The notes under the pieces: generated by a model
What the model saw: only the letters and a program-made list of their open reading frames with translations
Told to the model about the DNA's origin: nothing
The model's database searches: none
Source: Candidatus Neomicrothrix parvicella RN1
GTDB taxonomy: Bacteria; Actinomycetota; Acidimicrobiia; Acidimicrobiales; VFJN01
Direction of reading: 5' to 3'
NCBI GenBank assembly: GCA_945898515.1
Contig: CAMDIH010000020.1
Location: 1 to 33,873 of the forward strand
Length of the DNA stretch: 33,873 nt
Program-made: the position numbers and the translations under genes
In this document: positions 16,596 through 24,601 of the stretch, piece by piece
Position numbering within the stretch: the first letter of the stretch is position 1
How the letters are laid out: each line of letters opens with the position of its first letter

Positions 16596-17296
16596 GCGGG
16601 CAGCCTGATGTCGTCGGCCACAATCCGGCCATCCAGCATCGACACCCGGCGCTCTGCGTGATCCGCCACGGCGAGGTCGTGGGTAACCATCACGATCGCT
16701 CGCTCCGGCGATCTCAGCGACTCGAAGATCTCCATCACCTTGGCGGCGTTGGTGGTATCGAGGGCGCCGGTGGGCTCGTCGGCCAGGACGAGCAACGGGT
16801 CGGTGACGATGGCCCGAGCGATGGCTACCCGCTGCTGTTCACCACCCGACATTTGCACCGGCCGGTGATCCGTGCGAGCTCCGAGGCCCACCCGTTCCAG
16901 CGCCGCCCGGGCCCGGTCGGTCCGCTCCTTGCGGGACAGGTTGCGATACAGCAACGCCGTCTCGACGTTGCCTTGCGCGCTCAGGTGCGGGATGAGGTGA
17001 AACTGCTGGAATACAAACCCGATACTTTCGCCCCGCATTTTCGAGCGTCCGGCATCGTCGAGACCCCCCACGTCCACCCCATCGATGCGAATCACGCCGT
17101 CCGACGGAAGATCGAGCACCCCGAGCAGGCCGAGCATGGTGGATTTACCCGAGCCTGATGGTCCGATGATCGCCATAAAGTCCCCAGCCCGAATGGCCAG
17201 GGATACCTCACGAAGGGCATAGACCACTACTTCTTCCCCGTAGGCGCGTGACACCCGGTCCAGCTCCAACAGTGGCTGACCTTGGACCGGGCTCAC
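16592..17296 (-). CDS. ABC transporter ATPase, MacB/LolD type
   Basis: 234 residues with every ATPase motif intact. Walker A is [12 protein letters not shown], the Q-loop is [19 protein letters not shown], the signature is [15 protein letters not shown], Walker B is [13 protein letters not shown], and the H-loop is VMVTHD. The GALDT phrase and short length place it with the MacB/LolD/FtsE group that pairs with FtsX-type permeases. It overlaps its neighbours by GTGA on both sides, so the adaptor, ATPase and permease are translated as a unit. Confidence 0.94.
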
Positions 17297-19554
17297 CCTG
17301 ACGTGGGTCCCTCGTCGATGCTCACCACAACGATTTCGTCGCCTTTGAGGCCAGAGGTGATCTCGATGTACTCGTCGTCAACGAGACCTACCTCCACGGT
17401 GACGCGGTCGATCTTGCCGTCGTCGTTGATGACCCGCACTTCCCGCTTCCCGCCCTTTTGGAGCACCGCGGCCACGGGAACGGCCAGCGCGTCCACCTTT
17501 TCAGCCAGGATGACATCGATGGTCACACTGGCCCCGTCCACACCTTCGAGGGGGGCGGCAATCTCCACCACCCCGCCGTAGGTTTCCTCCCCGGCCTCGT
17601 TGGTAGTGGCGGAGGTGTCGAGTTCACTGATGATGCCCTCGGAAGTCTGGCCTCCCGCGGCGATATCCACGGTGACGGCCTGCCCCACCTTGAGCTCCGA
17701 GCGATCGGCGGCGCTCACCGAGAGATTTACGGTGAAGACCGGCTCAGTGAGGGTAAGAACCGGGCTCCCCTGTAACACGAATTCGCCGTCGTCCACCGCC
17801 ACGGTGCCCACCTGGGCGGGCCAGTCGGCCACCAACATGTCGCTAGGTACGAAAATGACGTCGTCATCGATGGTGCGGATCGGCACCGAAACTTCGGTGG
17901 CGCCCGCCGGCATCTCCACCGTGCCACTCAGGGTTTCGAAGTCGTCCCCCTGGGTGGCGCTCCCGCTGAGTTGGTAATTGACCGACGTAGTCTTCACGAA
18001 CGCCTGGTCGGCCACGATGGTGAACACCGCTTGCCCACCCTCGGCGATAGTCCCCCCTCCCAACAAAGTGAGCGTGGGCAGGTCCTCGCTTTCGATCACA
18101 ACGGTCGCCGTCGATGGTGCGGACGCCACGAAATCTGGGCCGGTTCCGATCCTCACGGCGAGCCACTCATTGATCTCCACGCTGTCGTCTTGGCGCGTGG
18201 AGATGGTGACGTCGGTGGAGGTTGCCCCTGCGGTCATTGTGACCGTGTCATCCTGCTCGCTGTAGTCCACCCCGGCCGTAGCCGAGCCGAACACACCGAT
18301 GGGAATATCGTAGTCCTCGTTGCGCTCCACATCAGCCTCGATGGTGAAAGTGGCCTGAGCACCCTCATTCACGATGTCGCTTGCGCTGTCGATGGTGAGC
18401 CTGGGGAGTCGCGTGGATCCATTGGCCCGGATTACACCCGTGACTGAGTTGATGGGCCCCCGGGTGTAAAATCCGCTGTCGTTGAACTGCTGCGTGAGGC
18501 TCACGGTGACTTCCTCAGACGATTCCACCACGTCGTCGCCAAATGTCTGGACCACAATGTTGTAGGTGGCTTGGCCTTCGGGGAACACGAAGGTAGTAGC
18601 CACCTCGGCGTAGTCGGCGTCGTCGCGCTCAAGGCCTCCGACAGCATCTCCGGCGATGGTCAAGTCGATCGTGAGATCAGTGGTAGGGACAGGGACGGCG
18701 GTGAAGGTGAAGGTGAGCTTGCCGCCCTCGTTGACCTCTGCGGGGGTTACCGCCACGTCGATGACCGGCTTCACGGGCTGCGCCACCAACGACGCCATCC
18801 GGGCCGAACCGGCTGATTGGCCCGTCACCCGAGCCGCTCCGGCGGGCACGTTGGGGCCGACCACAACGGCGATTGAGTTCTGCGGACCCACCTGATAGCC
18901 GGCGCTATTGGGGCTCAAGGAGATACCCACAGCCTCACCGGGTTCGGGGGTGAACCCGCCGTACCCCTGGTCGAATTGCCACTGGGACAAGCCGCGGCGA
19001 GTGGACTCCGTGAAGAGGCGGTCGATGGAGCCCACGGGGTAACCCTGATTGGAGAGAATGCGTTCGAGTTGCTCCACGTCGGGCCCATCGCTGCCCACGT
19101 CCAGCGCCCGGAAGAAGGCGAAATCGCCGTCTACCGCCACCGCCGAGCGACCGTCGAGGTCAAACAACGTGTCGCCTACGTTCACGGTATCTCCGTCGGC
19201 TACGAGAACGGAACTGACTTTACCGTCCACCGCTGAGTTGATCGTCTGCAGTTCGTCGCGCCGCAGTTCACCCGAGATGGTGAGAAGGTCCTGAAGGGTG
19301 AGGCGTTCCACGGGACGGGGAACGACGACCTGGCCGGCGGCCTGGTCAGCACCATCCGAGCCGGAGCTGCCCAGCATGAAGGCGGCCACCATGGCCACCA
19401 CAACTACGGCGCCGATCCCTGCCTTCTGGAGCTTCTTCCGACGCGCTGTTGCATCGCCCAGCGGCTCTGAATCCACGTCATCCACCGGCTCTGCGACCAG
19501 GCCATCCACCGGCTCTGAAGCCACGTCATCCATCGGTTCTGATCTCACTTCCAC
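17293..19554 (-). CDS. Membrane-fusion adaptor with peptidoglycan-binding and three Calx-beta-like modules
   Basis: 753 residues, about twice a normal adaptor. Order: an acidic repeat-like N-terminus (1-34), one membrane anchor (about 44-62), the first lipoyl half (about 105-135, VDGKVSSVLVADGDTVNVGDTLFDL) and a peptidoglycan-binding domain (about 150-198, DVGSDGPDVEQLERILSNQGYPVGS). Three Calx-beta-like modules follow near 264-375, 385-488 and 492-563, each starting like VNEGGKLTFTF, VNEGAQATFTI or IAEGGQAVFTI. Then come the second lipoyl half (about 568-604), a barrel and a membrane-proximal domain (605-747). The peptidoglycan-binding adaptor coupled to a MacB-type ABC pair is a known actinobacterial theme. 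The Calx-beta insertion is unusual. Start GTG 19554, or ATG 19533 with an 8-nt overlap. Confidence 0.85.
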   Translation of the reverse strand: MEVRSEPMDDVASEPVDGLVAEPVDDVDSEPLGDATARRKKLQKAGIGAVVVVAMVAAFMLGSSGSDGADQAAGQVVVPRPVERLTLQDLLTISGELRRDELQTINSAVDGKVSSVLVADGDTVNVGDTLFDLDGRSAVAVDGDFAFFRALDVGSDGPDVEQLERILSNQGYPVGSIDRLFTESTRRGLSQWQFDQGYGGFTPEPGEAVGISLSPNSAGYQVGPQNSIAVVVGPNVPAGAARVTGQSAGSARMASLVAQPVKPVIDVAVTPAEVNEGGKLTFTFTAVPVPTTDLTIDLTIAGDAVGGLERDDADYAEVATTFVFPEGQATYNIVVQTFGDDVVESSEEVTVSLTQQFNDSGFYTRGPINSVTGVIRANGSTRLPRLTIDSASDIVNEGAQATFTIEADVERNEDYDIPIGVFGSATAGVDYSEQDDTVTMTAGATSTDVTISTRQDDSVEINEWLAVRIGTGPDFVASAPSTATVVIESEDLPTLTLLGGGTIAEGGQAVFTIVADQAFVKTTSVNYQLSGSATQGDDFETLSGTVEMPAGATEVSVPIRTIDDDVIFVPSDMLVADWPAQVGTVAVDDGEFVLQGSPVLTLTEPVFTVNLSVSAADRSELKVGQAVTVDIAAGGQTSEGIISELDTSATTNEAGEETYGGVVEIAAPLEGVDGASVTIDVILAEKVDALAVPVAAVLQKGGKREVRVINDDGKIDRVTVEVGLVDDEYIEITSGLKGDEIVVVSIDEGPTSG
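19465..19536 (-). repeat. Short tandem repeat encoding EP(M/V)DD units
   Basis: The N-terminus of the adaptor reads SEPMDDVASEPVDGLVAEPVDDVDSEPLGD, four EP-x-D-like units. The DNA shows repeated CCACCGGCTCTG on the plus strand. The segment precedes the membrane anchor, so it should be cytoplasmic. Confidence 0.7.
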
Positions 19555-21225: not shown

Positions 21226-21870
21226 ATGCCCCTTGTCGTTTCACCCAGTGACGGAAACGTACGCCGGCTCGCCACGCTGGCCGCGGGCCTGCCGTTGATT
21301 TCGGTGGGGGTGGCCTGCACCATCCGGGCCGACATCGGCGTAGCCCCCTACGACGTGCTCCTCACCGGCACGGCGGCTTTCACCGGCATTGGCATCGGCC
21401 TGGCCGCCATGCTTCTTCCCCTGCTGTTCATCCTCACCGGGGTAGCCCTCGGTGCCCGCACCCGCCCGGGCACCTACATCAGCGCGTTGACCATCGGCCC
21501 GGTATTGGGTCTTGTGCTCCCCGCGCTCCCCGTCCCTCCGTCAATCTCGGCCCAACTGGCCTACTTCGTGGCCGGCTTTTTCAGCGTGGTCGCCGGGATC
21601 ACCTTGGTGGTGGCGGCCGATATCGGGCCGGGGCCGCTGGAAATCGTCATGCTGGCCCTAGATGCCAAGGGCTACCCGTTGGCCCGCTCCCGCGCGGGAA
21701 TCGAAGTGGTGTGTGTGGTGCTCGGCTGGGCGATGGGCGGCCAGGTGGGGGTGGGCACCATCGTGTTCGCCCTCCTCACGGGAGTGGCCCTGCGTCACAC
21801 CCTGACCCTGGTGGGCTTCCGCGCCGCAGTTGCCGAGAAGGCCAGCAACTTGGCCAGCACCGGCGCGTGA
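21226..21870 (+). CDS. YczE/YitT-like membrane protein
   Basis: 214 residues with about five or six hydrophobic segments and no large soluble domain. The start region PLISVGVACTIRADIGVAPYDVLLTGTA and the repeat-like second half VVAGITLVVAADIGPGPLEIVMLAL contain the paired Asp-Ile-Gly-x-x-Pro motifs of the COG2364 (YczE/YyaS) family. The two halves look like an internal duplication. The function of the family is unknown. Its TGA stop overlaps the GTG start of the cupredoxin gene, so it is the first gene of a coupled set of secreted proteins. A link between its function and theirs is not proven. Confidence 0.8.
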   Translation: MPLVVSPSDGNVRRLATLAAGLPLISVGVACTIRADIGVAPYDVLLTGTAAFTGIGIGLAAMLLPLLFILTGVALGARTRPGTYISALTIGPVLGLVLPALPVPPSISAQLAYFVAGFFSVVAGITLVVAADIGPGPLEIVMLALDAKGYPLARSRAGIEVVCVVLGWAMGGQVGVGTIVFALLTGVALRHTLTLVGFRAAVAEKASNLASTGA

Positions 21871-22253
21871 GTGGCCCAGACACACCTCGCCAAGGGCGCG
21901 TTGTTGGCCCAGGCCTGCTTGTCGCCGTCCTGTTCGCGCTCGGCGCTTGCGGTGGCGATGATGCCCCGCTGGTGCAGGGAGTGGTGGTCAGCATCACCGC
22001 AGTGGACAACACGTTTCGCCCGGTCGACGAGCAGGTAGCCAACGGAACGGTCATCGAATGGAAAAACCGGGGCCGTACCACGCACAACATCCGGCCCGTG
22101 GACGGCGGAGGTTGGGGCGTTGAGGAGAGCCAGTTCGGTCCTGGCGCCACCTACCAACACCGTTTCACCACGCCCGGCACGTATGGCTACTACTGCTCGT
22201 TGCACGGCACACCCACTAATGGCATGGTGGGCACCATTGTGGTCACTCGCTGA
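21867..22253 (+). CDS. Cupredoxin (plastocyanin/azurin-like) lipoprotein
   Basis: 128 residues from GTG 21867. The ORF track begins 52 codons too early, over the YczE gene. A signal peptide ends in the lipobox ALGAC near residue 28. The mature part is a single cupredoxin fold. It carries the type 1 copper ligands: His in GRTTHNIRP, then Cys and His in YYCSLHGTPTNGMVG and the Met close behind. It should bind one copper ion and carry electrons, or hold copper, outside the membrane. Translation is coupled to the preceding gene (GTGA). The neighbouring beta-helix protein suggests a shared extracytoplasmic role. Confidence 0.9.
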   Translation: MSGPDTPRQGRVVGPGLLVAVLFALGACGGDDAPLVQGVVVSITAVDNTFRPVDEQVANGTVIEWKNRGRTTHNIRPVDGGGWGVEESQFGPGATYQHRFTTPGTYGYYCSLHGTPTNGMVGTIVVTR

Positions 22254-22264
22254 ACACGTCGATT

Positions 22265-22270
22265 GAGGAG
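22265..22270 (+). promoter_or_regulatory. Ribosome-binding site deciding a TTG start
   Basis: GAGGAG with 7-nt spacing to TTG 22278. The ORF-track start (TTG 22263) overlaps this site, so the true start is most likely 22278. Confidence 0.6.
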
Positions 22271-22277
22271 CATCCCC

Positions 22278-23666
22278 TTGCACCACGCCACCCGCCTCGC
22301 CACCGTGTCATTCACGGCCCTGGCTCTGTTCGCAACGGCCTGCGGGGGCGGTGACACGAGCCCTTCCAACGAGGCCACCGGCAGCAGCGGCGCAACGATT
22401 CAGGTGCCCGAGGATCAGCCCACCATCCAGGCGGCGGTGGATGCCGCCGAGTCGGGAGACCTCATCCTGATCGCTCCCGGCACGTACGCCGAATCGGTGG
22501 ATGTGGAAACCGAAAACCTCACCATTCGTGGCCTCGACCGCAACGAGGTCATCCTCGACGGCGGATTCAAACTGGAGAACGGTATTCGTGTGTTCGCCGA
22601 TGGCGTCGCCATCGAGAACATGACCGTCCAGAACTACACCACCAACGGATTCTTCTGGACCGGCGTAACTGGGTACCGCGGCTCGTACCTCACGTCGTAC
22701 CGCAACGGCGACTACGGCGTGTACGGCTTCGATGCCACCGAGGGCCAACTTGAACACATCTGGGCTTCCGGTAGCGCCGACGCGGGGGTCTACATCGGCC
22801 AGTGCTACCCGTGCGACACCGTGCTCGACGACATCGTGTCGGAGTACAACGGCTTGGGCTATTCGGGCACAAACTCAGGGGGGGACCTGCTCATCATCAA
22901 CTCCACCTTCCGTCATAACCGAGCCGGCATCGTCCCCAACAGCGGTTCGTACGAACTGTGTTACCCCGGTCGGGACAACACGATCGTGGGCAACACCGTC
23001 TATTCGAACCAGCAGGCCGACACCCCTGCCATCGACGTAGCCCTTTTGGCTATGGGCAACGGCATTCTCGTGGCCGGAAGCAACCGAAATCTGGTAGCCC
23101 GCAACCTCGTCTACGACCACGACCGGGGGGGAATCGCCCTGGTTCCCTTCCCCGAGGAAGGGGCCAACGACGTGGCCCCAGCCGAGTCCACCTGGGACAC
23201 GCCCTGTGCCGAGGTGCGGGACCTGCCGCCCACCGTGACCGACCCGGCCCTGCTAGCGGCGGTGCTCTGGGATCCCCAGCAGAACCGAATCGTGGACAAC
23301 GTCGTGAGCGATTCCCGCATCGCTGATCTGGGCTTGGGCAGTCTGCAACCGGACTTGGCGGCCCTGGGCAACTGCTTCTCCGGCAACACCATTACCTCAA
23401 GCGCACCGATGAATCTTCAGAAACTGGCGCCCTGCGAAGGGGAACCCAGCGCCACTGATTGGTCGGCCGGAGGCTTGGACCTCATCGCCCTCATCACCGC
23501 CGTGCACCCCCCATCGATCGACTACGAGATCGCCCCCACTCCGAAACCCCCGATCCAGCCCAACATGCCCGATGCCGCCACCGCCCCCGCCCAACCCGCC
23601 ACCAATGTTCCCTATGCGGTGGATCTCGACGCCATCAAGGTGCCGGAGCGACCGAGTTCAGAGTGA
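22278..23666 (+). CDS. Right-handed parallel beta-helix lipoprotein (NosD-like)
   Basis: 462 residues from TTG 22278. The signal peptide ends in a lipobox (LFATAC near residue 22). The body begins IQVPEDQPTIQAAVDAAESGDLILIAPGTYAESV, the standard opening of pectate-lyase-like and NosD-like beta helices. It continues with beta-helix rungs (ENLTIRGLDRNEVILDG, VAIENMTVQNYT, LLIINSTFRHNRAGIV, NTIVGNTVYSNQ, RNLVARNLVYDHDRGGI). A CYPCD motif and several more Cys lie mid-protein and could form disulfides or bind metal. The C-terminal 90 residues are Pro-rich. No catalytic residues of a polysaccharide lyase are recognised. It sits between cupredoxin and DUF1996 genes. Confidence 0.85.
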   Translation: MHHATRLATVSFTALALFATACGGGDTSPSNEATGSSGATIQVPEDQPTIQAAVDAAESGDLILIAPGTYAESVDVETENLTIRGLDRNEVILDGGFKLENGIRVFADGVAIENMTVQNYTTNGFFWTGVTGYRGSYLTSYRNGDYGVYGFDATEGQLEHIWASGSADAGVYIGQCYPCDTVLDDIVSEYNGLGYSGTNSGGDLLIINSTFRHNRAGIVPNSGSYELCYPGRDNTIVGNTVYSNQQADTPAIDVALLAMGNGILVAGSNRNLVARNLVYDHDRGGIALVPFPEEGANDVAPAESTWDTPCAEVRDLPPTVTDPALLAAVLWDPQQNRIVDNVVSDSRIADLGLGSLQPDLAALGNCFSGNTITSSAPMNLQKLAPCEGEPSATDWSAGGLDLIALITAVHPPSIDYEIAPTPKPPIQPNMPDAATAPAQPATNVPYAVDLDAIKVPERPSSE

Positions 23667-24601
23667 GTCATTCGTCGGTGCAGCGTGCCCTTCCTGCGCT
23701 GGGGATTCTTGGTCTCACCTGCGCACTGGCCGGCGCGATCACCGGGGGCATGCTGCTGCTGGTTCCGGATGCCCCTGCCGTTCCCACCGCGACGACTGTG
23801 GTGAGCGGCGGCGCCTCCACGGGCCGGATCGCCGGTGCGGGGCCGCAAGGGCGGGTACCGCAATTCAAGGTGGAGTGTGGATGGAGCCACGCCGCTGCCC
23901 ACGATCCGATCGTGTTCCCCTCCGACCCTGGTGCCTCTCACCAACACGACTTCTTTGGCAACGTTGCCACCGATGCCAACTCCACTGCCGAGAGCCTGCG
24001 CGGCGGTGCGACCACCTGCGAGAACAAACTGGACACGGCGGCCTACTGGAGCCCGGCGCTCCGCCGGGGTGACACCCTCATCGAACCCAGCGGGAGTGTG
24101 GCCTACTACCGGCCCGGCCTGAACGTGCGCCCTGAATCGCTGGTGGCCTACCCCCCGGGGTTGATGATGGTGGCGGGAAATCCGAACGCCACCTCCCCTC
24201 AGGCCCTGGAAGTGGCGGCGTGGCATTGCGGGGCATCACCGATATTCCATGCCGCCCCCCCGACCTGTCCTGCGGCTGCGCCCCTCGCCGCCCGCATCGC
24301 CTTCCCCGATTGTTGGGACGGCGAGCACACCGATAGCGATGACCACCGCTCCCATGTGGCCTACAGCACCCAGGGCCGCTGCCCGCCGGGCCGGTGGGTG
24401 CCCACCCCACAACTGATTTTTGAGGTGCAGTACCCGGTGACGGGCGATCCGTCCGGGCTCAGCCTTACCTCGGGCGATGTGATGGCGATCCACGCCGATT
24501 TCCTCAATGCCTGGGACCAGAAGGCCCTAGAGCGTGAGGTGCGGGCGTGTCTCAACCGCAACCACATCTGCGGCGTCGTCTCCAACCGCGCCACTGGGTA
24601 A
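23663..24601 (+). CDS. Secreted DUF1996 protein
   Basis: 312 residues from GTG 23663, which overlaps the preceding stop as GTGA. The longer ORF-track version is a shadow of the beta-helix gene. A single hydrophobic segment (about 9-34) acts as signal or anchor. The DUF1996 core shows SHQHDFFGNV, the CENKLDTAAYWSPAL element, a HSHVAYS-type segment (DDHRSHVAYSTQGRCPPG) and VPTPQLIFEVQYP. Cys residues are paired through the domain. DUF1996 is common in fungi and actinobacteria and its function is unknown, though it is secreted. The His clusters allow a metal site. It ends the coupled plus-strand set. Confidence 0.88.
   Translation: MSHSSVQRALPALGILGLTCALAGAITGGMLLLVPDAPAVPTATTVVSGGASTGRIAGAGPQGRVPQFKVECGWSHAAAHDPIVFPSDPGASHQHDFFGNVATDANSTAESLRGGATTCENKLDTAAYWSPALRRGDTLIEPSGSVAYYRPGLNVRPESLVAYPPGLMMVAGNPNATSPQALEVAAWHCGASPIFHAAPPTCPAAAPLAARIAFPDCWDGEHTDSDDHRSHVAYSTQGRCPPGRWVPTPQLIFEVQYPVTGDPSGLSLTSGDVMAIHADFLNAWDQKALEREVRACLNRNHICGVVSNRATG

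Follow-up and report, generated by a model that had tools for sequence, protein, structure and literature searches.

In the window (the whole 33,873-nucleotide stretch of DNA that was analysed), gene linkage indicates that the conserved unit is made up of three genes, not four. They encode a cupredoxin, a right-handed parallel beta-helix protein and a DUF1996 protein (Table 1). We propose, with an even chance of being right, that the products constitute a module for electron transfer anchored in the envelope. In it, the cupredoxin lipoprotein would be a one-electron carrier working on the beta-helix lipoprotein, and the latter would serve as a docking scaffold and perhaps as a substrate-binding surface. 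The redox enzyme would probably be the DUF1996 protein, anchored on the same outer face; its invariant HxH and HxD motifs make dependence on a metal most likely. Its substrate would be extracellular, possibly a polysaccharide, and its turnover would involve an exchange of electrons with the cupredoxin. That DUF1996 is an enzyme is inferred from sequence, as are the metal it uses, its substrate and the way in which electrons flow; gene neighbourhood does not prove electron flow in the module. Since both the carrier and the third protein are exchanged for other redox proteins at related loci (see below), the unit suggests an undescribed cell-surface electron-transfer system. The kind of module is itself known but uncharacterised; this version of it is new.

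Table 1. Genes of the three-gene unit and the adjoining YczE-like gene (positions in the window).
Product	Position	Strand	Features
YczE-like membrane protein	21226..21870	+	NF052291 match; overlaps cupredoxin gene, outside conserved unit
Cupredoxin lipoprotein	21867..22253	+	PF00127; type-1 copper site H73, C110, H113, M120; lipobox LFALGAC
Right-handed parallel beta-helix lipoprotein, TIGR03805-like	22278..23666	+	TTG start; lipobox LFATAC; CxxC 176-179
DUF1996 protein, N-terminal hydrophobic anchor	23663..24601	+	PF09362; H93, H95, H277, D279 invariant; eight conserved Cys

The arrangement given in the preliminary description, four genes with two GTGA overlaps and a 24-nt gap, is exact. GTGA joins the YczE stop to the GTG start of the cupredoxin gene and the beta-helix stop to the GTG start of the DUF1996 gene, while the 24 nt separate the cupredoxin stop from the beta-helix TTG, which is preceded by GAGGAG. 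The beta-helix and DUF1996 genes share stop and start bases in 45 of 76 relatives (CTG starts counted, gene starts taken from a simple caller), a frequency that, on these predicted starts, exceeds chance.

A contig scan gave 496 beta-helix relatives, and the locus counts refer to the 80 nearest to the beta-helix of the window, a set thereby biased to Acidimicrobiia (origin judged by record titles, a few of which are evidently wrong). DUF1996 lies directly downstream of the beta-helix gene in 76 of these 80 loci, and in the remaining four the contig ends within 168 bases of it. A cupredoxin gene is present in 73; it either precedes the beta-helix gene on the same strand or lies downstream of it in convergent orientation. 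Among the others, the contig end cuts the side where a cupredoxin could lie in L051, L053, L064, L086 and L117; in L070 the upstream side is cut likewise and 1 kb of downstream sequence holds none. L088 is the only locus of the 80 to have no cupredoxin although 8 kb of sequence extend to either side. Among 60 relatives examined, several families of the order have a strong beta-helix relative, and both partners adjoin the beta-helix in the families coded f1, f3, f6, f7, f20 and f42. Of 22 in-order genomes in the phylum sample, seven have DUF1996 together with a strong beta-helix, one the beta-helix only, none DUF1996 only and 14 neither (Fisher p 5e-5, a value that overstates independence, the loci being related). 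The idea of a conserved, exported and membrane-anchored gene set is thus upheld by the linkage in the nearest loci and by the anchoring motifs.

The expectation of a conserved four-gene order holds in part: the three-gene linkage extends throughout Acidimicrobiia, a large actinobacterial group with few cultured members, but the YczE-like gene adjoins the unit only in the genus of the window and was rejected as a member. Its product scores 103.7 bits against NF052291, below the curated cut-off of 205. The genes flanking the unit vary between lineages, and a wider conserved operon was rejected, as no further gene recurs across them. At four loci (L065, L120, L123 and L225) one DUF1996 gene is flanked by two beta-helix genes. 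The contigs of L086, L095 and L118 are titled Bifidobacterium breve and hold Acidimicrobiia-like sequence; these record names look wrong.

The cupredoxin matches PF00127 at 37.6 bits (gathering cut-off 21.2). Its type-1 His-Cys-His-Met site is complete, as described previously, and is conserved in relatives, where nearly every axial ligand is Met and the few exceptions are Gln (a small number of rows that the pattern of the script had assigned wrongly were read by eye). Gln takes the place of Met in L041, L044, L056, L062 and L212. A cupredoxin-like match antisense to DUF1996 in L166 was rejected, the frame being that of a WD40-type propeller.

The beta-helix protein is just above cut-off for PF13229 (31.8 bits) and falls short of the curated cut-off for TIGR03805 (85.3 vs 141.5 bits), which none of 297 genomes in the phylum passes. 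The neighbour is a cupredoxin and not the di-haem cytochrome expected for a TIGR03805-type protein. The AlphaFold2 single-chain model (pLDDT 93) has the right-handed beta-helix fold of the AlgE and PL6 enzymes, and Foldseek against the PDB returned beta-helix epimerases and lyases, among them PL6 lyases and the A-module of the alginate epimerase AlgE4 (E 3e-8, TM 0.41). These matches could mean that the genes form a carbohydrate unit without electron transfer, in which the beta-helix would be lyase- or epimerase-like, DUF1996 carbohydrate-binding or hydrolytic and the cupredoxin a side component. DUF1996 domains joined to carbohydrate-binding modules, discussed below, would fit the same scheme. 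However, right-handed beta-helices in general give a fold match of this kind (12-17% identity, TM about 0.4), and the scheme leaves the fused carriers and the multicopper, di-haem and cytochrome neighbours of related loci unexplained. We regard it as unlikely, albeit the strongest competitor of the electron-transfer model.

Six Cys residues of the beta-helix are conserved. In an alignment of 65 rows, C176 and C179 of the CxxC are present in all and C366 and C386 in almost every row, while C228 and C310 are kept or lost as a pair (four joint losses, no discordant row). This pattern fits disulfides; distant relatives have CxxxC in place of the invariant CxxC. A Cys-based metal cluster was rejected, as the paired pattern fits disulfides better. 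The preliminary description held that a surface lacking clustered metal ligands would speak against its proposal, and this is what was found in part: the 65 rows contain no conserved His cluster and the Cys residues fit disulfides, perhaps with the exception of the CxxC. The motifs YGIYAFD, YIGQCxPC, GYSGTN and GIVPN recur at a spacing of one helix turn and, judged by this spacing and not by coordinates, may form one functional stripe. A distant beta-helix relative (L048, 6669-10348) adjoins a DyP-type peroxidase and an EfeO-like protein, neighbours that possibly tie the fold to iron uptake. In L040 (9545-10282) and L037 (3401-4177) the place of DUF1996 behind the beta-helix is taken by an unnamed protein family, one member of which weakly resembles SCO4651 lipoproteins.

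Beyond the DUF1996 type, in a phylum-wide beta-helix set chosen from strong matches, there are 25 more loci at which a cupredoxin is linked with a related beta-helix, and in 23 of these both are parts of a single polypeptide. Fused and separate forms share the conserved motifs. In a tree of 70 beta-helix domains (a quick method with SH-aLRT only and some long branches), the DUF1996-linked proteins fall into one group with few exceptions; fused forms stand on several branches, in its sister group and again inside it (L084 and L223), and in L084, from Acidimicrobiia, cupredoxin and beta-helix are one protein. A two-domain multicopper oxidase lies within about 3 kb at 13 of the 25 cupredoxin-linked loci, which have no DUF1996 there, and adjoins none of the 80 DUF1996-type loci, counts that are not fully independent because some of the 25 come from one genus. 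The genome of the window (90% complete) has no multicopper oxidase match. The fusions in other Actinomycetota (such as L211, L213 and L216) have the same two domains, the shared motifs and an exported redox neighbour; they differ from the unit of the window, in which the carrier is separate and DUF1996 occupies the place of their multicopper oxidase. The copper link suggested previously is borne out by the intact type-1 cupredoxin and by these oxidases.

Haem proteins can also stand in these positions. In L041 and L044 a di-haem oxidoreductase (PF06537) lies beside the beta-helix; both loci have the Gln-type cupredoxin. The plasmid-borne beta-helix of Ruegeria pomeroyi (L253) passes the TIGR03805 cut-off with 163 bits and carries a C-terminal cytochrome c domain with a CTGCH motif (PF13442, 25.9 bits, just below the cut-off of 27). 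The same row of genes encodes a di-haem cytochrome c and a MauG/MbnH-like di-haem peroxidase that scores below both family cut-offs. In Novosphingobium (L256) the beta-helix gene is followed after 11 nt by a gene annotated as an SO2930-family di-haem cytochrome. These two systems resemble ours in that a related exported beta-helix has an electron carrier either next to it or as a fused domain, and differ in that the carrier of the window is a cupredoxin, DUF1996 is added and the TIGR03805 score is below cut-off. A carrier that is interchangeably copper or haem suggests electron transfer, since cupredoxin and cytochrome c have this function in common and not copper delivery; the argument rests on these two alphaproteobacterial loci. 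The actinobacterial relatives L209, L220 and L240 have no carrier beside the beta-helix. Two haloarchaeal plasmid relatives (L251, 5896-6777, 49% identity; L252, 5899-7104, 40%; both over part of the query) likewise have none next door. The open-licence literature on SO2930 or on cupredoxins with beta-helix proteins yielded nothing directly relevant. These scattered and so far unexplained beta-helix proteins can be grouped as one kind of surface electron-transfer module, with a carrier of copper or haem.

The swap also bears on the earlier view of the beta-helix as NosD-like with a CYPCD motif, NosD being known for its part in copper-site maturation of nitrous oxide reductase. The motif is indeed at residues 176-180 and PF05048 (NosD) is matched just above cut-off (26.4 bits), but the score against the NosD model TIGR04247 is 40.6 bits, far below the curated cut-off of 300. 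As noted at the outset, nitrous oxide reductase is absent: the NosZ search of the 90%-complete genome returned only a match to a 53-residue tail, 25.7 bits against a cut-off of 625 (Sec-type model). The likeness to NosD is that of an exported beta-helix protein named as copper-linked, while the window differs in its score, in lacking NosZ and in having no NosFY genes adjoining. In a copper-delivery unit, the cupredoxin would carry copper, the beta-helix would dock the cupredoxin, and DUF1996 would be the cuproprotein client that receives the metal. The PF05048 match, the invariant CxxC and the copper-requiring multicopper oxidases at related loci are compatible with such a unit. The TIGR04247 score and the missing NosZ argue against it, as do the Cys residues that act as pairs (C228 and C310 lost jointly in four of four cases) and the cytochrome c and di-haem partners of relatives, which require no delivered copper. 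We therefore consider copper delivery improbable, somewhat more so than the carbohydrate unit. A NosD function of the beta-helix was rejected on its score, the missing NosZ and the cytochrome c in the carrier position of relatives, which makes NosD-like copper-site maturation unlikely.

The DUF1996 protein matches PF09362 at 139 bits (gathering cut-off 27). The signatures D-x4-P, HxH, YW and HxD, shared with the formula of the fungal proteins (PMC4738358), are present as D81, H93 and H95, Y128 and W129, and H277 and D279; the final GW of that formula reads AW here. H93, H95, H277 and D279 are invariant in 69 rows, and the signature residues are kept in each of the 20 domains taken from outside the order. 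Eight Cys residues are invariant in Acidimicrobiia. In 37 of the 69 relatives, a Cys within the N-terminal anchor region may be a lipobox Cys. The domain is modelled with high confidence (AlphaFold2, single chain, pLDDT about 97), and Foldseek found no match to its fold among PDB or viral models; by sequence there are no meaningful solved relatives. The literature found on DUF1996 in actinobacteria and filamentous fungi describes no biochemical activity. Two actinobacterial proteins are fusions of the domain with CBM6/CBM35 or F5_F8 domains, and in fungi it occurs with CBM1, CBM6 or WSC domains and a role in polysaccharide degradation has been suggested (PMC7679414). With these fusions to carbohydrate-binding modules, the earlier idea of a surface polymer perhaps gains weight. 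Fungal and other actinobacterial DUF1996 proteins resemble that of the window in the PF09362 domain with its D-x4-P, HxH and HxD signatures; they differ in having no adjoining beta-helix and cupredoxin outside the order, where some carry carbohydrate-binding modules.

We read DUF1996 as a redox enzyme because oxidases take its site elsewhere, the HxH and HxD residues are conserved, the fold has no match and the domain is fused to CBMs. With moderate confidence it is probably an enzyme of this type whose substrate is a polysaccharide or something similar at the surface; the conserved His residues could nevertheless be structural. Moreover, DUF1996 occurs elsewhere in the phylum without beta-helix or cupredoxin and might therefore be active independently of the carrier. 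The fixed linkage to a carrier in Acidimicrobiia, at the position held by multicopper or di-haem oxidoreductases, gives the domain a concrete candidate function that can be tested, that of a redox enzyme. By analogy with the electron donors that serve lytic polysaccharide monooxygenases, one might speculate further that DUF1996 represents a new metal-dependent family of enzymes that act oxidatively on polysaccharides, with a dedicated cupredoxin that docks on the beta-helix as its partner; we think this rather unlikely. Finally, the proteins might buffer copper or oxidative stress at the surface, binding or re-oxidising copper or quenching oxidants with no specific substrate. Fungal DUF1996 deletions are indeed more sensitive to oxidation and to several metal ions (PMC4738358), and multicopper oxidases lie beside relatives of the unit. 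In the same fungal work, however, sensitivity to Cu2+ was unchanged (PMC4738358), and the recurring neighbours include no recognisable copper exporter or sensor; buffering appears the least probable of the alternatives. Elsewhere in the window, at 17293-19554, an HlyD-type adaptor protein also contains three Calx-beta stretches and has a peptidoglycan-binding match; its gene adjoins ABC transporter genes.
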